Part shown: positions 42,980-52,108 of the stretch, one piece after another
Position numbering within the stretch: position 1 is the first letter of the stretch
Layout: each line of letters opens with the position of its first letter
DNA from: Thermacetogenium phaeum DSM 12270
GTDB taxonomy: Bacteria > Bacillota > DSM-12270 > Thermacetogeniales > Thermacetogeniaceae
DNA length: 64,000 bases
NCBI RefSeq assembly: GCF_000305935.1
Contig: NC_018870.1
Coordinates: 761,942-825,941, forward strand
Direction: 5' to 3'
The notes under the pieces: model-generated
Seen by the model: the letters and a program-made list of their open reading frames with translations, nothing else
Database searches by the model: none
What the model was told of the DNA's origin: nothing
Program-made: the position numbers and the translations under genes

Positions 42980-44590
42980 GTGAAAACAAGCCAGAATATT
43001 GTTGGCGGAGCATTGGCGGGAGAGCTTCAACTGGAAGCTCCCAGGGTTATTGTAATCAATCCGACCGTTCAGGTCAAAAAAGACAAGCTGCGCATCGCGG
43101 CATACGCCCGTGTCAGCAGCGACTCCGACGACCAGCTGAACTCCTTCGCGGCGCAGGTGAACCATTACACCACGCTGATCCGGGAAAACGAGAATTGGGA
43201 ACTCGTCGACATTTATGCCGACGAGGGCGTCACAGGACTGCGGATGGATAAGCGGGAGGATTTTCAGCGCCTTCTCCGCGACTGCCGCAAAGGGAAAATC
43301 GACCGAATCCTGACCAAATCCATCTCGCGGTTTTCCCGGAACACAAGGGAGTGCCTGGAAACCATCCGGGAACTCAAATCCCTTGGCGTGACAATTTATT
43401 TTGAAAAGGAACACATCGATACCGGAGAAATCAGCAACGAGATGCTGCTGACCTTTTTCTCCGGCAACGCCCAGCAGGAGTCCATGTCCATATCGGGAAA
43501 CATGCGGTGGAGCTATCAGCACCGCATGAAAAACGGCACATTCATTACCTGCAAAGCGCCCCTCGGATACCGGCTGCAGAGCGGCACCCTGCAAATCCAT
43601 GAGCAGGAAGCTGAAATCGTTCGCTATGTTTTCAACAGCTATCTGAACGGAAAAAGCAAGGACGAAATCGCAGATGAACTGACTGCGCAGGGCGTCCCCA
43701 CAAGGGACGGAAAAGACAGGTGGCACTACAGTACGATAGACTATCTCCTGAAAAATGAACGGTATGCAGGCGACGCCCTGCTGCAAAAACGGTACACCAC
43801 CGCCGTCCTGCCGTTCCAGAAAAAGCGCAACAAAGGCGAGAAGGACAAATACTATGTCAAATACTCGCATCCCGCAATTATCTCCCGCGATATTTTTGAA
43901 AGGGCGCAGGAGTTGAACCAAAGCAGGAATATCCCTACCATGTCGAAACGCTCGATGTATCCGCTGAGCAAAAGGATTCGATGCGGAGAGTGCGGGTCGC
44001 TTTTCAAAAGGAAAACCTGCAACGGAAAAACCTACTGGGTATGCCACAACCACAACAAAGGCAAATCTAACTGCACCGTTACCCAAATTCCGGAGCCGGA
44101 GATCTACGGAGCATTCCTCCGGCTGTACCACAAGCTGAAGCTGAACTATGACAAAATTTTATCCCCCATGTTGGATCAACTGCAGGCGCTCAAGCGACAC
44201 CGAAACTTAAGCAATCTGCAAGTGGTCGAGCTGAACAGGCAGATCGCGGAACTCACTGAGCGGAATCATGTGCTGAACGGACTGAAGTCCAAAGGCATCA
44301 TCGATTCCGCTCTTTTTATATCCCAAACCGACGAGCTGAGCAGAAAAATCCGCGCCTTAAAAGCAGAGAAAAACAAGCTGATGGAAAAGGATGAGGACGA
44401 CAGCGCCATCACCGAAACCAGGAGCCTGATCGAAATCCTGGAGGACGGACCGGAGCGTCTGAGCGGTTTTGACGAAACGCTCTTTGACAGTATAGTGGAG
44501 CTGGTCACCGCCGAGTCCGGCGAACGGCTGAAATTCAAGCTGATAAACGGTCTGGAGCTTGCCGAACCCATAGAAAGGACGGTGCGGTAG
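42980..44590 (+). CDS. Large serine recombinase 1
   Basis: GTG 42980 follows AAAGGAGG. This 536-residue enzyme has a catalytic domain at about 35-190 (AAYARVSSDSDDQLNSF with the Ser, and LTKSISRFSRN). A recombinase domain spans about 200-310. A zinc ribbon lies at about 335-375 (CGECGSLFKRK and CHNH), and a coiled coil (about 405-470) precedes the C-terminus. Large serine recombinases integrate DNA at att sites through a Ser-linked double-strand break. All key residues are present. Confidence 0.92.
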   Translation: MKTSQNIVGGALAGELQLEAPRVIVINPTVQVKKDKLRIAAYARVSSDSDDQLNSFAAQVNHYTTLIRENENWELVDIYADEGVTGLRMDKREDFQRLLRDCRKGKIDRILTKSISRFSRNTRECLETIRELKSLGVTIYFEKEHIDTGEISNEMLLTFFSGNAQQESMSISGNMRWSYQHRMKNGTFITCKAPLGYRLQSGTLQIHEQEAEIVRYVFNSYLNGKSKDEIADELTAQGVPTRDGKDRWHYSTIDYLLKNERYAGDALLQKRYTTAVLPFQKKRNKGEKDKYYVKYSHPAIISRDIFERAQELNQSRNIPTMSKRSMYPLSKRIRCGECGSLFKRKTCNGKTYWVCHNHNKGKSNCTVTQIPEPEIYGAFLRLYHKLKLNYDKILSPMLDQLQALKRHRNLSNLQVVELNRQIAELTERNHVLNGLKSKGIIDSALFISQTDELSRKIRALKAEKNKLMEKDEDDSAITETRSLIEILEDGPERLSGFDETLFDSIVELVTAESGERLKFKLINGLELAEPIERTVR

Positions 44591-44591
44591 C

Positions 44592-45467
44592 ATGAAAAAC
44601 CGATACATCCCATTCGGATACCGGCTTTCTGAAGGAGTCATCGTACCTCATGACAGGGAAGCGGAAATGGTGCGGCTGATCTTCCGGCAATACATATCCG
44701 GCGAGTCCTACAGCCGGATCGCCGCCATGCTGGAAAAAGCGGGGCAGCCCTACAGCGAAGGCTCCCGCTGGAACAAGAATATGGTGGGACGCATCCTGCA
44801 AAACCGGAAATATACCGGACAGGACGGATATCCCAAACTGGTCACGGAGGACGAGTTCAGACAGTCCGCCCTGCTCCAGCAGGCAAAATATACCCGCAAG
44901 GATATACATACGGCTCCGAAGATTACAGCCCTGAAAAGGAAAGTATTTTGCGGAGAATGCGGAAGCCCCTATGAAAGGATTCTGGACAACCGGACCGGGG
45001 AGAAATGGAAATGCAAAAATACCGGGTGCCGCCCCACGACAAAAATCACCGACACCCTGCTGACCGGGCAGATCATCTCCCTGCTGAACCTTGCCGTTGA
45101 AAATCCGCAGCGTATCGAAATCCCGGACATTGTAAGCCGATGCCATGACCTCGAAATCACAAGGCTGACCAACGAGATCAACCGGGAACTGGACAAGACG
45201 GACTGCGACGAGGAATACGCCAGAATCCTGATCATAGCCCGCGCCGCCGCCCAATACGAGAGCTGCACGGACAGTCTTCTGCCGCAAAAGGCGCGGGAAA
45301 TCAAAGCGGCCTTTGAAAGTCGTAAACTCCTAACACAGTTTGATGCGGAGCTGTTCGAATGCGCCGTGGACGCGGTCGTCATCCAGCCGGACGGAACGGT
45401 CTCCCTGAAGTTAAAAAACGGACAGAGCCTTGAAAACAGGCCGGAAAGGAGAGCAATACCATGCTGA
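44592..45467 (+). CDS. Serine recombinase 2 without catalytic domain
   Basis: It starts two bases after the previous stop. The 291-residue protein begins directly with the recombinase domain (PFGYRLSEGVIVPHDREAE, then MLEKAGQPYSEG). A zinc ribbon (CGECGSPYERI and KCKNTGC) and a C-terminal helical part follow. The roughly 190-residue resolvase domain is absent, and the start has no upstream relic, so this is a stable short form rather than a recent deletion. It can bind DNA but not cut it, and may work with the neighbours. Confidence 0.85.
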   Translation: MKNRYIPFGYRLSEGVIVPHDREAEMVRLIFRQYISGESYSRIAAMLEKAGQPYSEGSRWNKNMVGRILQNRKYTGQDGYPKLVTEDEFRQSALLQQAKYTRKDIHTAPKITALKRKVFCGECGSPYERILDNRTGEKWKCKNTGCRPTTKITDTLLTGQIISLLNLAVENPQRIEIPDIVSRCHDLEITRLTNEINRELDKTDCDEEYARILIIARAAAQYESCTDSLLPQKAREIKAAFESRKLLTQFDAELFECAVDAVVIQPDGTVSLKLKNGQSLENRPERRAIPC

Positions 45468-47134
45468 TGGCACAAAGCGATTTACAACCGCAAGAAAAGC
45501 AAATTATCATCATCCCCGCCAATCCCCTCGTAGCCCAAAACAGGACCTTCCCCCGGCAGCTTCGCGCCGCCGCATACTGCAGGGTCTCCACCGACCAGGA
45601 GGAACAGCTCACCAGCTACGAGGCGCAGGTGGCTTACTATACCGACAAGATCATGAGCAACCCCGAATGGACGCTGGCAGGCATATTCGCAGACGAAGGC
45701 ATCACGGGGACGTCGGTAAAAAAGCGCACCAACTTTCTGAGAATGATCCGTCTGTGCAGGAAGGGCAAGATTGATATCATACTGACCAAGTCTATCAGCC
45801 GGTTTGCGAGAAACACGGTAGACTGCCTGAACTACATCCGGGAACTCAAGGAGCTGGGGATAGCGGTCATTTTTGAAAACGAAAACATCAACACCATGAA
45901 AGCGGACACCGAAATTATTATCACCATGCTGGCAGGCTTCGCCCAGGCGCAGAGCGAGTCAATCAGCCAGAACGTCCGCTGGGGCAAACGCCAGGCCTTT
46001 AAAAGCGGAAAGGTATCCTTCCAGTATTCAAGAATCTACGGATACGAACGGGGCGAGAATGATAAGCCCAGGGTGGTCCCCGAACAGGCGGCTGTAGTGC
46101 GGCGGATATTTCAAAGCTATCTTGCCGGAAGCAGCGTGCCTGATATCAAGCGGATGCTGGAAGCGGAAGGCATCGTTGCGGCGGAAGGAAAGCCCCAATG
46201 GTCCGTCGGCGCCCTGCAGTATATGCTCCGGAACGAGAAATACTGCGGCGACGCCCTCCTGCAAAAGACCTTCGTGGAAAACTGCATCAGCAAGAAAACG
46301 AGGAAAAATAACGGCGAGCTACCCAAATACCTGGTTCAAAACCACCATGAGGCGATCATCGACCGTACGCTTTTTGAGAAAGTGCAAGCGGAAATCGCCC
46401 GCCGTGCCGGAAAGCGGAAGGTATCCGACAAGACCAGCAAAACCGGACAGTCCAAATACAGCGGAAGGTACGCCCTGACCGAGCTTCTCATCTGCGGCAA
46501 CTGCGGTACTCCCTACAAGCGGGTGACCTGGTCAAAGCGGGGCAAGAAAAAGATCGTGTGGCGGTGCATCAGCCGGTTGGACTACGGCACGAAATACTGC
46601 AAAAGCTCCCCCACCGTCGATGAAGAAAGGCTTCAGGCGGCGGTGCTGAAAGCCATCAACGCCATGATGAGCAATCGGGAACGGCTCATCGGTATCCTTA
46701 AAACCAATCTGAAAATCACGCTTTCTGAAAAAAGCAGCGGCGCGACCAATCCATACGCAATCGAAAACCGCATCCGCGAGCTGCAGGACAGCATGATGGA
46801 GTTGGTGGCGGTCGCGGCAAAGGCGGGAAACGCCGAAAGCTACGAGGACAAGTTCAGAGAAATTTCGGAGGAAATCAAATCCCTGCAGAAAACACTGGAG
46901 CAATACCAGGCGGAGCAAAACGGTCCGGATGAACTCGCCAGGCAGATGGATGACATCTGCAAGGCGCTGGAAGACGCCCCCTTTGAAATAACGGAATACA
47001 GCAACAACATTGTGCGGCAGTTTATCGACACCATCAAGGTGGTGAATGAAGATAAGCTGCTCTTTATTTTTAAAGGCGGCATTACGATGGAACAACCGCT
47101 CACGATACAGGATATCCCGATGTATAGCAAATAA
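45461..47134 (+). CDS. Large serine recombinase 3
   Basis: The gene overlaps the preceding one by seven bases. The 557-residue enzyme has the catalytic Ser in AYCRVSTDQEEQLTSYE, and GIFADEGITGTSVKK and LTKSISRFARN in the resolvase domain. It has a recombinase domain and a zinc ribbon (CGNCGTPYKRV), then a C-terminal coiled coil (about 425-495). Complete. With recombinase 1 it forms a pair of active enzymes, as in elements that need two or three recombinases for integration and excision. The remnant at 34758 is its closest relative in the window. Confidence 0.92.
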   Translation: MLMAQSDLQPQEKQIIIIPANPLVAQNRTFPRQLRAAAYCRVSTDQEEQLTSYEAQVAYYTDKIMSNPEWTLAGIFADEGITGTSVKKRTNFLRMIRLCRKGKIDIILTKSISRFARNTVDCLNYIRELKELGIAVIFENENINTMKADTEIIITMLAGFAQAQSESISQNVRWGKRQAFKSGKVSFQYSRIYGYERGENDKPRVVPEQAAVVRRIFQSYLAGSSVPDIKRMLEAEGIVAAEGKPQWSVGALQYMLRNEKYCGDALLQKTFVENCISKKTRKNNGELPKYLVQNHHEAIIDRTLFEKVQAEIARRAGKRKVSDKTSKTGQSKYSGRYALTELLICGNCGTPYKRVTWSKRGKKKIVWRCISRLDYGTKYCKSSPTVDEERLQAAVLKAINAMMSNRERLIGILKTNLKITLSEKSSGATNPYAIENRIRELQDSMMELVAVAAKAGNAESYEDKFREISEEIKSLQKTLEQYQAEQNGPDELARQMDDICKALEDAPFEITEYSNNIVRQFIDTIKVVNEDKLLFIFKGGITMEQPLTIQDIPMYSK

Positions 47135-47324: not shown

Positions 47325-47384
47325 CGAGTTTATTCTAATTAAAGTGAATAAGCCATTGCATTTATTCGCATCTCCGCATATAAT
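47325..47384 (+). repeat. Left copy of 60-bp target duplication (carries a promoter)
   Basis: Identical over 60 bases to 49341-49400. It contains TTGCAT, 17 bases, TATAAT, so this copy has a promoter reading into the IS against its transposase. Confidence 0.85.
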
Positions 47385-49340
47385 CTCACATTTGACAGTT
47401 GAAGAAAAGAAGAAGCTTGGGAACCCTTGAAGATAGAGAGACCCAAGCTTTTGTTTTCTCATTAAAAAGTGAGTAATGTATTTATGCTTTTGTACATTTA
47501 AAAATTTTTTTCATCTGGCTTTTGCTGACAATCTGATAATCCGTACGGAAACCAAATGCTTCGTGAATATCATCTGTAAAGTCAGTTCTTGTGTAAGCAG
47601 GTATGTAACCCTCGCCCTTTACTTCCAAGAAATTCATATCTCTTAATCCATTAATGATTTCATAACATGTATATTTTCCGTTCAGCTTCTTTTCAAGGAG
47701 TCTATAGATGACTAAGGAAATGAAGCAGGTCGTAAAATGAGCTATTATTCTATCATCCCGGCTTAAGTATACCGGTCTTGCTTTAAATTCGCTTTTCATA
47801 ATCCGGAAGCACTCTTCGATTTCCCATCGCCTTCTATTCACATTGATGATTGAAGAAGCATCATCTTCAAGATTCGTACACACAGCATAGAAACCGTCAA
47901 ATAGCGCTTCTTTTGAAATGAGTTTGGTGTCGATGCGGTATATTTCATGTTCGGCAACCTCTCCTTCAGCAGTGCAGTGGCTTTTTTCTATGAATCTTTT
48001 GTAATCATTTGGGCCATATCTTTCTATTTTACCAGGGTTGGAATCAATTGCTTTTTGTGCCCGTTCTATCTGGGAGTTTCGTATATTTCTCTGATAATCA
48101 CGATATTTAATAGAGTAGGTAACAATGAGTTTCTGTTCTAACCCGTTTTCCTTTATCCAGCGTTCTTTATGGAACACCTTGTCCCTATCTTTGTTTTCGT
48201 CTAGTTCAGCAATGTTGTAGGTTCTACCGTCATCAGCCAGAGACCAGCCCTTTGGGTCAAGGGCCCATTCCCTCAGGTGTGCTTTCAGCTTTTTGATGGA
48301 CTGTGTTGTAATAAATGCCCGTTCACCTTTATTATTGAATTTCCTGTTGCTATCGGATGCCAGGCCTGCATCAGTACATACAATAAACCTGGAAAGATTA
48401 AAGTCGGATAGAATTTTTTCCTCCAGAGGCTTTAAAGTCAACTGCTCATTGGTATTCCCTTTGTTAATGACAAAAGCAAGGGGGACACCATCTCCGTCCA
48501 TAAAAAGCCCCATCTGTACGATAGGGTTTGGTCTATGTTCTTTTGAAACACCATATTGTTTCAATCCCTCTTCCTGTTCGATTTCAAAGAAGTAATTCGT
48601 GCAGTCGTAATATAGCACACCTGTATTCCTCTTGGAAATTCTCAGACTATTTTTGTACAGGTAAGACTGTATCAAATCAGTCTCCTTGGCAATGACCTCA
48701 AGGGCCCTGTATATATGCTGGAGTTCAAAATCAGGTTGCTCGATAAATTTTGTGGAAAGTTGAAAGGTTGCAAGTTTTGAAGAGGGATAGATGATTCTTG
48801 CATAAAGAAGTCTTGAAAGTACCGAGTCCAGGTTGAACGTGAATTTGTATTTCAAAGATATTTCCTTGCAAAGCTTATTGAGTTTAAGTTCATGGTATAT
48901 CTTTTGAAGAAAAAGATAACCGCCGTTGAAAAAGTGCTGCTCACCCTTTGCAATTACCTTGGATGGGGAGTATTTGACGATGATCTCCCGGTTTTCCTCC
49001 TTTTCTTTTTGGTTAAGCTCTTCTATATATTTTTTCGCCCATTCAATGGGATCCTGACCACCAAGTTTCTCCTTAAGTTCAGCATAAGTACCGAGCTTTT
49101 CAACCACCTTTGTAGAACGTCTTCCGTTTTCGTATATAGATTTTGTTATGTACAGGGATGCGGCATTCTTCGATCTAGATACGCATAATCTCATAGTAAA
49201 ATCCCTCCCATCCCTTTTATTGTAACACATTACGCTAAATTACGCAATATTTCCATGGCTAAATTTGACTTTTTTTTATAAAAAAAGCCCTGTTTTCAAG
49301 GCTTTTAACGATTTCGATACTTATTCAACTGTCAAAGACC
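47385..49340 (-). mobile_element. IS1634-family insertion sequence
   Basis: A single DDE transposase gene lies between inverted ends TTTGACAGTTGAA (47391-47403) and TTCAACTGTCAAA (49324-49336). The flanking 60-bp direct repeats fit the unusually long and variable target duplications known for the IS1634/IS1549 group. Confidence 0.88.
47482..49194 (-). CDS. IS1634-family transposase
   Basis: The minus-strand ATG 49194 follows GGGAGGGATTTTACT. The 570 residues begin MRLCVSRSKNAASLYITKS. IS4/IS1634 catalytic words are present: GVLYYDCTNYFFE (first Asp), IVCTDAGLAS (second Asp) and RWEIEECFRIMKSEF (Y/R-x-E region with the Glu). It is uninterrupted, so the IS is probably active. It is transcribed opposite to the flanking genes. 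Confidence 0.92.
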   Translation of the reverse strand: MRLCVSRSKNAASLYITKSIYENGRRSTKVVEKLGTYAELKEKLGGQDPIEWAKKYIEELNQKEKEENREIIVKYSPSKVIAKGEQHFFNGGYLFLQKIYHELKLNKLCKEISLKYKFTFNLDSVLSRLLYARIIYPSSKLATFQLSTKFIEQPDFELQHIYRALEVIAKETDLIQSYLYKNSLRISKRNTGVLYYDCTNYFFEIEQEEGLKQYGVSKEHRPNPIVQMGLFMDGDGVPLAFVINKGNTNEQLTLKPLEEKILSDFNLSRFIVCTDAGLASDSNRKFNNKGERAFITTQSIKKLKAHLREWALDPKGWSLADDGRTYNIAELDENKDRDKVFHKERWIKENGLEQKLIVTYSIKYRDYQRNIRNSQIERAQKAIDSNPGKIERYGPNDYKRFIEKSHCTAEGEVAEHEIYRIDTKLISKEALFDGFYAVCTNLEDDASSIINVNRRRWEIEECFRIMKSEFKARPVYLSRDDRIIAHFTTCFISLVIYRLLEKKLNGKYTCYEIINGLRDMNFLEVKGEGYIPAYTRTDFTDDIHEAFGFRTDYQIVSKSQMKKIFKCTKA

Positions 49341-49400
49341 CGAGTTTATTCTAATTAAAGTGAATAAGCCATTGCATTTATTCGCATCTCCGCATATAAT
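49341..49400 (+). repeat. Right copy of 60-bp target duplication with promoter of the HTH operon
   Basis: TTGCAT (49372-49377), 17-base spacer, TATAAT (49395-49400), about 38 bases before the HTH start. The original promoter is therefore preserved downstream of the IS. Confidence 0.8.
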
Positions 49401-49437
49401 ATAATTTAGATAATTATGGTAAAATGGGGTGTCTGGC

Positions 49438-49617
49438 ATGAGTGCATACATAAGTGTGAAAGCTGCTGCTCAAAAATGGGGACTGTCAGACCGGCGTGTA
49501 CAAGTATTATGTTCTGAAAACAGAATAGATGGAGCGTTTCGGCTGGGTAATGCATGGGCTATACCCGCTGATGCGAAAAAACCAGATGATAAGAGGAAAA
49601 CCCGGAAGAAAGGATAA
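49438..49617 (+). CDS. Small helix-turn-helix protein heading the methylase/ATPase operon
   Basis: ATG 49438 follows GGGGTG. The 59 residues (YISVKAAAQKWGLSDRRV, then QVLCSENRIDGAFRLG and AWAIPADAKKP) are clearly homologous to the protein at 26222 that heads the type III-like restriction genes. It is a MerR/excisionase-like HTH, probably the operon regulator. It is followed by the ParB-like gene after 14 bases. Confidence 0.75.
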   Translation: MSAYISVKAAAQKWGLSDRRVQVLCSENRIDGAFRLGNAWAIPADAKKPDDKRKTRKKG

Positions 49618-49631
49618 GGAGACGTTTAGAT

Positions 49632-50601
49632 ATGAGTAATCCAATTTACAAAAAAATAAATATTACCAATCTATTGCTTAATCCTAGCAATCCGCGTTTT
49701 AATCCTGTAGAACATCAATCGGAAGCAATTGATGCTATGATTCGTGACCAACAGGATAAGTTGGTCGTGTTAGCCAGACATATATCTCTTTATGGACTTA
49801 ATCCCAGCGATCTTATTCTTGTGAAACCCTATAAAAAACAATGGGTAGTACGTGAGGGTAATCGGCGCGTGACAGCTTTAAAGTTAGTAAATGAGCCATC
49901 CTTAATTCCATCTGACTTTCCAAAACTAAAGAAAGAATTTCAACAATTAAGTTTGACTATTGATAAAGATCTATTGGAAAATATTTAATGTGTTGTTTTG
50001 GAGAGCGAAGACGAAATTAACGAATGGGTTCGCTTAAAGCATACAGGCCAAAATGAAGGTGCTGGCACTGTAAGCTGGGATGGTCAGCAAACAAGCCGTT
50101 TTCGTGCGATTGCCGAAGGAAAGCCAGACATGAGATTGACTTTTTTGGATGATTTACGACGCATGGAAGCTGTTCCCCAATATATAAAGGATAGATTAGG
50201 AGATATTAAGAAAACGAATTTTGACCGTCTTATAGGAGATCCTGACATTCGAAATCTTTTGGGACTTGAGATTGTTGATAATAAGCTTCAACTAATAAAT
50301 GGTATTAATCCGTTTTTACTAATGGTACTTAACGATTTGGTTTATGAAGACCTTAATGTAGGGACTATATACCTGAAAAAGGATCGTATTAAATACATAG
50401 AATCATTGAAGGAGCGGCTCAAACAGGAGGATAGTGCAATTGCTGATAGACAAAACTCCGAGAATAGTGATACTATGGGGGATACCAATAACACAGGCTA
50501 TCATACACCCAAACTATCAAATGGGGATTATTCTGCAAATGGTGTAACAAATGGAGAGCAGCAGTCTTCATCTACGACCAACGCAGCTTCGAACGGCTTG
50601 A
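49632..50601 (+). pseudogene. ParB-like domain protein, N-terminal and middle part (stop codon, then IS)
   Basis: The protein starts with a ParB/Spo0J-type N-terminal domain: NLLLNPSNPRFNPVEHQS and VVREGNRRVTALKLV, the latter being the nucleotide-binding/dimer motif. TAA at 49986-49988 interrupts the frame. The same frame then continues without a gap (CVVLESEDEINEWVRLKH) for about 200 residues, so the stop is a point nonsense mutation or a read-through site. A Ser/Asn/Thr-rich linker leads to the IS3 insertion at 50602. The remaining C-terminus is at 52179-52657. In the ancestor this would be one protein of about 480 residues. Confidence 0.8.
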
Positions 50602-50662
50602 CCCCCTAAAATTGGACAATTAGTCTTTATTGCTAACTATTTCATAAAGTATCATTGAATTG

Positions 50663-50862
50663 TTTAGTCGGAAGGCGGCGGCCTTGACTGCCACCCCGCA
50701 GGTGGTAGGCCAGGAACTACCGACGGGGTGGCTCCGGGGAACATGTAGGCAAGGTGTGCACGCCCCGTCGGAAAACACATTTTACCATCTCCGGGGTCCC
50801 CGGCCGTCAAGGCTTCCCTGACGGCGCCGCCCAAAGACCTCCAGGGCCCACCAAAGAACATG
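50663..50862 (-). other. GC-rich structured block downstream of the IS transposase
   Basis: About 200 bases of much higher GC than the IS genes and the host gene. It has several inverted repeats, for example CCGTCA/TTGACGG on the minus strand near 50797-50825 and CCCCGTCGG/CCGACGGGG (50715-50730 and 50763-50772). No convincing reading frame. It is either a 3' structured RNA of the IS transcript or an acquired insertion. Confidence 0.45.
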
Positions 50863-51783
50863 TTAAACTTTTACTGGTTTTAACTCTACCTGGTTGTTTT
50901 TCAGCAGTTGATAGCATTCCAGCGGTGGTAAGTATTTAGTTGCTGAATGAATCCGGGTTTCGTTGTAAAAGCGGATAAAGTCGACAACCGTTGCATACGC
51001 TTCGGCATAGCTGGCAAACTCATGACGCGATAGGCATTCCTCCTCCAAGATAGCGTTAAATGACTCGATATGAGCGTTTAAATTGGGTGTTTTAAAGGGA
51101 ATCCTTTCGTGCTCGATGCCAAGTTCCAGGCACGTCCCCTCGAAAAGGTTGCTGATAAACTGCGGCCCGTTATCGGATCTGAAGATTGGTTTTTGTTCAG
51201 CTGTGTATAATTGCCGTTTAAAAAGAGCGTTTTTAAAGGTGATTACAGCATCCTTCGCTTCACAGGACAAACCGATATGGTAAGCTACAATGCAACGGTC
51301 AAAAACGTCAATAATCGGCATAATGAAAAAGAATCTGTCTTCCCCGGCAATGTAGCCGTATTTAAGATCGGCTTCCCAGAGCTGGTTGGAAGCCGTAATG
51401 ACCCGGTTCCTGGCCAGCCGGCGGGGATGTTTGCGCTTTATTTTCCGCTGCGGCCTTAAGATATCCAGTTCCTTGCAAAGCCGGTACACCTTTTTCTTGT
51501 TAATGATCAGGTGAAACTTCCGGCGCAGGCAGTGGGTTAATTTTAAGTATCCATAGGCAAACCCTTCGGCGGTAATTAATTCGCACAACCATTCTTTGAC
51601 CTGTTCGTTGCTCACCACCTTGTTATCGCTGGTGAAGGTATAATGGGATTTAGGCCGGCCGCCGGCAAAGATCCTGGGTTTGGGTTGGCGCTTTAAATTA
51701 GCGTAATACGTGGAACGGCTGATCCCGATAATCCGCAAAACCAGGGAGACTTTATATCCCAAAGAGATCCATTTTTGCGCCAC
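50863..51783 (-). CDS. IS3-family transposase OrfB
   Basis: The 306 residues hold the rve core with acidic residues in WEADLKYGYI, FRSDNGPQFI and HIESFNAILEEE, intact. It lies in a different frame from OrfA. A run of seven A on the minus strand at 51812-51818 near the OrfA end is a likely site for the programmed -1 frameshift that makes the OrfAB fusion in this family. GTG 51783 would be the internal start. Confidence 0.88.
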   Translation of the reverse strand: MAQKWISLGYKVSLVLRIIGISRSTYYANLKRQPKPRIFAGGRPKSHYTFTSDNKVVSNEQVKEWLCELITAEGFAYGYLKLTHCLRRKFHLIINKKKVYRLCKELDILRPQRKIKRKHPRRLARNRVITASNQLWEADLKYGYIAGEDRFFFIMPIIDVFDRCIVAYHIGLSCEAKDAVITFKNALFKRQLYTAEQKPIFRSDNGPQFISNLFEGTCLELGIEHERIPFKTPNLNAHIESFNAILEEECLSRHEFASYAEAYATVVDFIRFYNETRIHSATKYLPPLECYQLLKNNQVELKPVKV

Positions 51784-51790
51784 GGCTATT

Positions 51791-52108
51791 TTATCGGGAA
51801 GGGTAGGTTCGTTTTTTTAACAAATCACGAAGAATGGCGATTTCCAGGTCTTTTTCGCCCAGCAGTTTCTTTAGTTGTTCATTCTCCTTTGTTATCTTCT
51901 TGTAATCAGGAGGAATACAGGAGCCGTTTGTTCCTGGTACCTCCTTTTGCGGGTAAAATGTGCCGTATCTTTTATAGCACCTTGCCCAGCGGGCGACCAG
52001 GCTGGGTGCAATATCATGTCTTCTGGCCACGATCGAGGCATTGCCCGTTTCCAGGGTTTCTTTCACGATCTGCATTTTCATCTCTGGTGAATATTGTTTT
52101 CTGTTCAA
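51791..52108 (-). CDS. IS3-family transposase OrfA
   Basis: This 105-residue protein has an HTH_Tnp_1 domain (KQYSPEMKMQIVKETLETG, then IVARRHDIAPSLVARW) and a C-terminal leucine zipper (KENEQLKKLLGEKDLEIAIL). It begins close to the right IS end, as usual. Confidence 0.88.
   Translation of the reverse strand: MNRKQYSPEMKMQIVKETLETGNASIVARRHDIAPSLVARWARCYKRYGTFYPQKEVPGTNGSCIPPDYKKITKENEQLKKLLGEKDLEIAILRDLLKKRTYPSR

Follow-up and report, generated by a model that had tools for sequence, protein, structure and literature searches.

Genomic Locus and Insertion Sequence

The window (the whole stretch of 64,000 nucleotides that was analysed) contains an insertion sequence (IS) of the IS1634 family that lies between two copies of a direct repeat. 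Positions 47325-47384 and 49341-49400 are identical over 60 of 60 nucleotides at a spacing of 2,016 nt, which is far beyond chance and confirmed the perfect 60-bp repeat of the original prediction. By the end rule of the family the repeat measures 58 bp; the outer CG fits both the IS and the target. The features of the locus are the following:

47327..47384, + strand: copy of the target duplication at the IS 3′ end, with its putative promoter reading into the IS
47356..47384, + strand: putative promoter copy facing the transposase gene, TTGCAT-17-TATAAT, with TATAAT (47379-47384) abutting the IS
47385..49342, − strand: IS1634-family insertion sequence, 1958 bp, with ends set by the end positions common to its relatives
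47391..47406, no strand: terminal inverted repeat TTTGACAGTTGAA, transposase 3′ side
47408..47455, + strand: predicted terminator for antisense transcription, a hairpin followed by a T run, located after the duplicated promoter and before the transposase gene
47482..49194, − strand: transposase, NF033559 IS1634 family
49321..49336, no strand: terminal inverted repeat TTTGACAGTTGAA, transposase 5′ side
49343..49400, + strand: copy of the target duplication that remains with the downstream gene, including the native −10 and start region
49429..49617, + strand: first gene behind the kept promoter, a 62-aa helix-turn-helix-like ORF (HTH_17, below the curated cut-off)

The end positions common to the relatives (C GGGTC TTTGACAG ... 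CTGTCAAA NNNNNN) placed the IS at 47385-49342. Its length is within the 1500-2000 bp, and its end CGGGTCTT fits the pattern C-----YT, that are given for the IS1634 family in the table of PMC2266710. The family assignment of the original prediction was borne out by the transposase, which scored 363 bits against NF033559 (NCBIfam, cut-off 100), and the best family was IS1634/DDE_Tnp_1 rather than a Mutator-type one. Residues D197, D275, and E460 were invariant in an alignment of 34 transposase sequences and are probably the catalytic DDE residues. The predicted structure (mean pLDDT 81) had the Tn5 transposase as its closest fold and gave no hint of a polymerase-binding part, and a sequence search of the PDB returned matches only at E 0.1 or worse. 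At the DNA level the IS is present as a single copy in its genome. A second IS1634-family transposase of the same genome (G000:C1:1794354-1795892, L200) is 27% identical and groups with clade C of the tree described below. No relatives of the IS were found in the viral contigs searched.

The last six nucleotides of the left repeat copy are TATAAT, directly against the IS. The promoter had been described as consensus-like, which is too strong when it is taken alone, given that TTGCAT agrees with TTGACA in three of six positions; in a promoter scan with a threshold of at least 4/6 per box, TTGCAT-17-TATAAT was absent. Other parts of that description were supported, namely that the repeat is a target duplication, that the downstream gene keeps its promoter after the insertion, in the second duplication copy, and that a second promoter copy, at 47356-47384, reads into the IS and faces the transposase gene. 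What had been missed is that the promoter inside the repeat is a target rule of the lineage and not the product of chance. The operon behind the kept promoter looks decayed.

Several other elements were observed around the IS. Three large serine recombinase ORFs lie in tandem at 42980-47134, and no resolvase N-terminal domain was found in the middle one (44592-45467). Just behind the first gene, at 49632-50609, an in-frame stop separates two ORFs that share a frame and have no Pfam match. A two-ORF element on the minus strand, IS3-like by eye, occupies 50863-52108, and 259 nt of the region ahead of it (50592-50850) are found again, at 100% identity, in another part of the genome.

The −10 Box at the 3′ End of the IS

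Relatives of the IS were gathered as the best 80 of 251 from named genomes, plus relatives from further genomes. In a first pass over them, the duplication at the IS 3′ end repeatedly started with ATTATA, that is, TATAAT reversed. Junctions were anchored on the IS 3′ inverted repeat alone, with duplications ignored, which yielded 70 distinct junctions. The mean match to ATTATA in these was 5.11 of 6 at the junction vs. 0.8-3.1 at offsets 1-39. Including later loci there were 83 distinct 3′ junctions (best-segment identity 57-100%). Among copies of at least 55% identity, those without the TGTCAAA anchor (22), with short flanks (6) or with N (2) were left out, and 21 repeated junctions were dropped from the remaining 104. 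The match to the −10 box was 6/6 in 40 of the 83 junctions, 5/6 in 22, 4/6 in 16, and 3/6 or lower in five. Thus, a match of at least 5/6 was present at 62 of 83 junctions, against 391 of 23572 positions located 6-300 nt away (1.7%). As a hold-out, 13 junctions fetched after the rule had been seen matched at 6/6 (five), 5/6 (four), and 4/6 (four), and a −35 box of at least 4/6 accompanied five of the 13.

The IS 5′ junction displayed a weak A/C preference and nothing more. The orientation to the promoter is therefore fixed, with the −10 box at the IS 3′ end. At locus L101 the junction matched the −10 box in 0/6 positions and the repeat was just 5 bp.

Promoters as Targets

The −35 hexamer peaked at a 17-bp spacer. 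Boxes matching at 5/6 or better were found at spacers of 16-18 bp in 23 of 70 junctions, against 0-4 of 70 at spacings not touching 16-18; among the 83 junctions, they were distributed over 16 bp (3), 17 bp (16), and 18 bp (7). The TGn of an extended −10 preceded the −10 box in 29 of 70 junctions, with 4.7 expected. For comparison, intergenic and genic ATTATA sites were taken from the same loci as the insertions. Where the hexamer was exactly ATTATA, a −35 box of at least 5/6 was present in 15 of 40 insertions, 11 of 153 intergenic sites (p = 7.5e-6), and 8 of 339 genic sites, and TGn in 17 of 40 insertions vs. 20 of 153 intergenic sites (p = 9e-5).

Considering ORFs of at least 90 aa, the nearest ORF on the promoter side read in the direction of the promoter in 30 of 34 duplication-verified insertions (p = 3e-6 vs. 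one half), and on the opposite side the nearest ORF read away in 13 of 34. A looser test on the start of the downstream ORF gave a weak signal (17/34 left, 13/34 right, and 296/1020 at random places). In the 34 duplication-verified copies the second −10 copy was located 32-331 bp from the other IS end, and the promoter must therefore originate in the target and not in the IS. Taken together, the sequence comparisons indicate that the IS of the window is very probably a member of an IS1634-family lineage whose insertion targets are sigma-A-type promoters.

It must be considered that the transposase might read a TATAAT-like sequence on naked DNA, promoters being hit as the carriers of that sequence and RNA polymerase playing no part. 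No other signal is nearly as strong as the −10 box, many target sites have no good −35 (9 of the 40 exact-ATTATA insertion sites had neither a −35 of 4/6 nor TGn), and in part of clade B the cut is moved inwards by one base, which a displaced DNA-reading pocket would produce. However, −35 and TGn were enriched beyond the level of intergenic ATTATA sites, and the presence of the −35 at 16, 17, or 18 bp is a looseness typical of promoters and not of one rigid site, although selection against insertions at other sites could yield part of this enrichment and spacing. We regard the reading of naked DNA as a serious possibility, at somewhat less than an even chance.

Empty Sites

The original prediction had proposed that an empty site be sought in relatives. 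Locus L207 is a relative of the window site without the IS, in which 29 of the 31 nt of the promoter are kept directly before the same gene, with 86% identity to the window over 249 nt. It has one copy of the repeat segment, and no empty site carrying both copies was detected. The promoter spacer and its surroundings are alike in this other genus (47354-47384 vs. 1501-1531 of L207), and the DNA upstream has no match. This conservation suggests a regulated promoter or an operator at 47354-47384.

The duplication is directly shown by a pair of phages, YS225 (empty) and YS387 (filled), in which 47 bp are present once and twice, respectively. Their flanks are identical over 2,547 nt on the left and 99.8% identical over 1,894 nt on the right. 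Five more phage records match the right flank and repeat at 99.9% over the full length, and a search with the IS as query located it in YS387 alone. The phage IS copy has 51.5% identity to that of the window and branches with clade A; its junction hexamer matches the −10 box in just 3/6 positions, and a promoter, TTTACA-17-TAGAGT, ends 4 nt away. An empty site in Carnobacterium was looked for and none was found.

That the repeat predates the IS, or arose by recombination, is an explanation for which no support was found. The phage empty site and L207 each hold one copy, and the repeats vary in sequence and length with each insertion and abut the IS ends; we consider this origin practically excluded.

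Length of the Duplications

The 66 duplications of clades A, B, and C ranged from 15 to 526 bp, with a median of 125.5 bp, and 65 of them were at least 32 bp long. Lengths below 32 bp were thus found in 1 of 66 cases, against about 12 under a plain exponential. Without L236, the 65 lengths fit a dead zone of 32 bp followed by an exponential of about 126 bp (bootstrap p = 0.54), whereas the shifted fit was poor (p = 0.02) when the 15 bp of L236 set the dead zone. L229 and L235 were left out of the fit as their repeats are broken by mismatches. The short duplications of L236 (15 bp) and L101 (5 bp) occur within clades of long repeats, both at poor −10 matches.

No duplication of at least 8 bp was detected in 34 of the 68 copies with both ends readable. 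Eight of these 34 (L003, L041, L061, L062, L073, L099, L006, and L063) could be traced to indels, nesting, a later insert, a contig end or a gap of N, and the other 26 could not. Deletion products were rejected as the cause of the missing duplications, since there was no ORF excess at the left junction except in L006, which is mostly N there, and L072. Kilobase duplications in L041 and L061, whose left repeats are seemingly 2.3 and 2.8 kb away, were also discarded: the exact match is just 232 and 37 bp, and another IS copy or other DNA lies between the apparent repeats. L041 has two IS copies, nested or in tandem, inside one 232-bp duplication.

Clades and Reach of the Rule

The tree was built on 44 chosen rows and placed clades A and B together on one side of a branch with support of 99/99. 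Clade A (57-100% identity to the window) follows the −10 rule, the IS mostly being joined between −7 and −6, flush with the −10 box on its downstream side. In clade B (31-33%), 12 of 23 junctions had a match of at least 5/6 within one base (background 4.3%). Here the joint is less exact, ATTATA (at least 5/6) beginning one base before the duplication in 9 of 19 copies whose left base is known, and exactly at its start in L173; L236 has a −10 match of 3/6. In clade C (27-29%) the duplications measured 59-405 bp and no −10 rule was apparent, 1 of 16 junctions reaching 5/6; loci L174-L191 are examples of long duplications without a −10 box at the joint. In clade D (22-25%), 5-bp duplications were present in 5 of 8 copies, and none were found in the other three, those of G319. 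The counts of 23 and 16 junctions for clades B and C do not include L180 and L200, which have no anchor, and L241, L243, and L245, which repeat L161-L163, were not counted twice.

Clade C thus combines long duplications with the absence of the −10 rule, and therefore promoter choice alone does not explain long duplications, which seem to be older or wider than promoter choice.

Other copies were kept apart. Two Mycoplasmopsis copies (L204) had duplications of 109 bp and perhaps 30 bp; they were left out of the clades because of their number, a very long branch and the absence of a clear −10 box. A duplication was looked for in the Lactobacillus johnsonii copy L205 and none was found. An IS1634-family copy, L202, adjoins ermC on a Ligilactobacillus salivarius plasmid; the 3′-end pattern search gave no match in it and it is in no count.

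These data bear on the possibility that insertion is indifferent to promoters and that the copies seen are the survivors that kept the neighbouring promoter. In favour of it, a duplication of 32 bp, reached in 65 of 66 cases, is enough for −35 to −10, and on the promoter side the direction of the gene is preserved. However, selection cannot set the joint at the same −10 base in most of 83 cases, and clade C keeps a minimum of 59 bp without a promoter at the joint. Survival as the explanation is already largely refuted by the base-exact joints, and we give it very little credence.

The Antisense Promoter Copy

The original prediction amounts to a promoter duplicated once by chance, with an antisense copy that might restrain the IS. 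It is true that the copy points towards the transposase gene, which is the case for every insertion that follows the rule. Nevertheless, the rule is lineage-wide, and the predicted terminator at 47408-47455 precedes the end of the transposase gene (47482). For the segment 47391-47470 the predicted folding energy is −21.3 kcal/mol (z −3.3). In antisense direction, 72 of 83 copies have a hairpin followed by a T run, vs. 30 of 415 shuffles, which keep base composition only; in sense direction, 75 of 83 have one. Since the terminator is located before the gene end and is common to 72 of 83 copies, antisense RNA should mostly stop short of the transposase gene. The antisense restraint was therefore not supported, and a chance duplication with this role is very improbable.

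Proposed Mechanism

The comparisons show that one joint, that of the IS 3′ end, lies at or within one base of the downstream edge of the −10 box, and that the other IS end is joined upstream, 15-526 bp away (at least 32 bp in 65 of 66). The segment between the joints, with the core promoter, becomes the target duplication. One promoter copy stays with the native gene, and the second faces the IS 3′ end with its predicted bidirectional hairpin terminator. Beyond this, we infer that a promoter becomes the target by being marked by RNA polymerase or by the melted −10 region, and that the first joint is made at a fixed place and the second afterwards, at a random distance beyond a minimum. The benefit would presumably be that the host gene suffers little from the insertion.

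The melted region of the open complex extends from about −11 to +2, so that joints at −7/−6 or −8/−7 are inside the normal transcription bubble. The position of the joints in the melted region, the −35 enrichment and the loose spacing therefore favour recognition of the polymerase-bound promoter; a transposase that reads the −10 box itself is about as good an account. In its most explicit form, polymerase-bound recognition would be transcription-coupled: the transposase would capture sigma-A RNA polymerase open complexes, the 3′ end would be joined to the template strand where it is melted at the edge of the −10 box, and the second end would follow after a memoryless upstream run. We put this model forward tentatively, with the odds rather against it.

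Relation to Known Systems and Significance

IS1549 and IS1634 have a transposase of the same family as the IS of the window and likewise have long, variable direct repeats, reported as 8-514 bp in PMC2266710. The same review gives AT-rich repeats of 5-6 bp for the family otherwise, a range outside which the 58 bp of the window fall, and 6-bp repeats are described for two other members (PMC8024623, PMC3281130). As stated in PMC2266710 in 2008, no model had been proposed for the long repeats, and by term count the word "promoter" is absent from the main text of that review. In the open-licence literature searched, including the available text of PMC2266710, PMC3942029, PMC8024623, PMC3281130, PMC11448079, and PMC8944449, no statement on promoter targeting by the IS1634 family was found.

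Promoters are also the targets of TnGBS, ISLre2, and ISKra4, which are described in PMC3942029 as Mutator-type DDE elements inserting at sigma-A promoters, most of them in one constant orientation that puts the right end closest to the promoter. They are like the present lineage in being bacterial DDE elements with promoter targets and a fixed orientation. However, their transposases are of a different family, and they make a spaced insertion about 13-17 bp upstream of the −35, whereas the lineage of the window inserts at the downstream edge of the −10 box and duplicates the promoter. IS1202-family elements at dif sites also have a fixed, oriented functional target (PMC10132070), which is the XerC side of dif and not a promoter.

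The long variable duplications that the 2008 review (PMC2266710) left unexplained are thus, in one lineage of the family, anchored with one end at the −10 box. This would be a second bacterial way of promoter targeting besides that of TnGBS, ISLre2, and ISKra4, in this case with duplication of the promoter. In addition, the question of whether the DNA motif or the polymerase is recognised becomes directly testable, and natural insertion sites may serve as a record of promoters in uncultured bacteria. If transposition is indeed transcription-coupled, this would provide the long repeats of the IS1634 family with their first mechanism and the IS with an inherent means of leaving host promoters intact. 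That the promoter of the neighbouring gene stays in place after the insertion may help to explain the long, odd repeats of the family.
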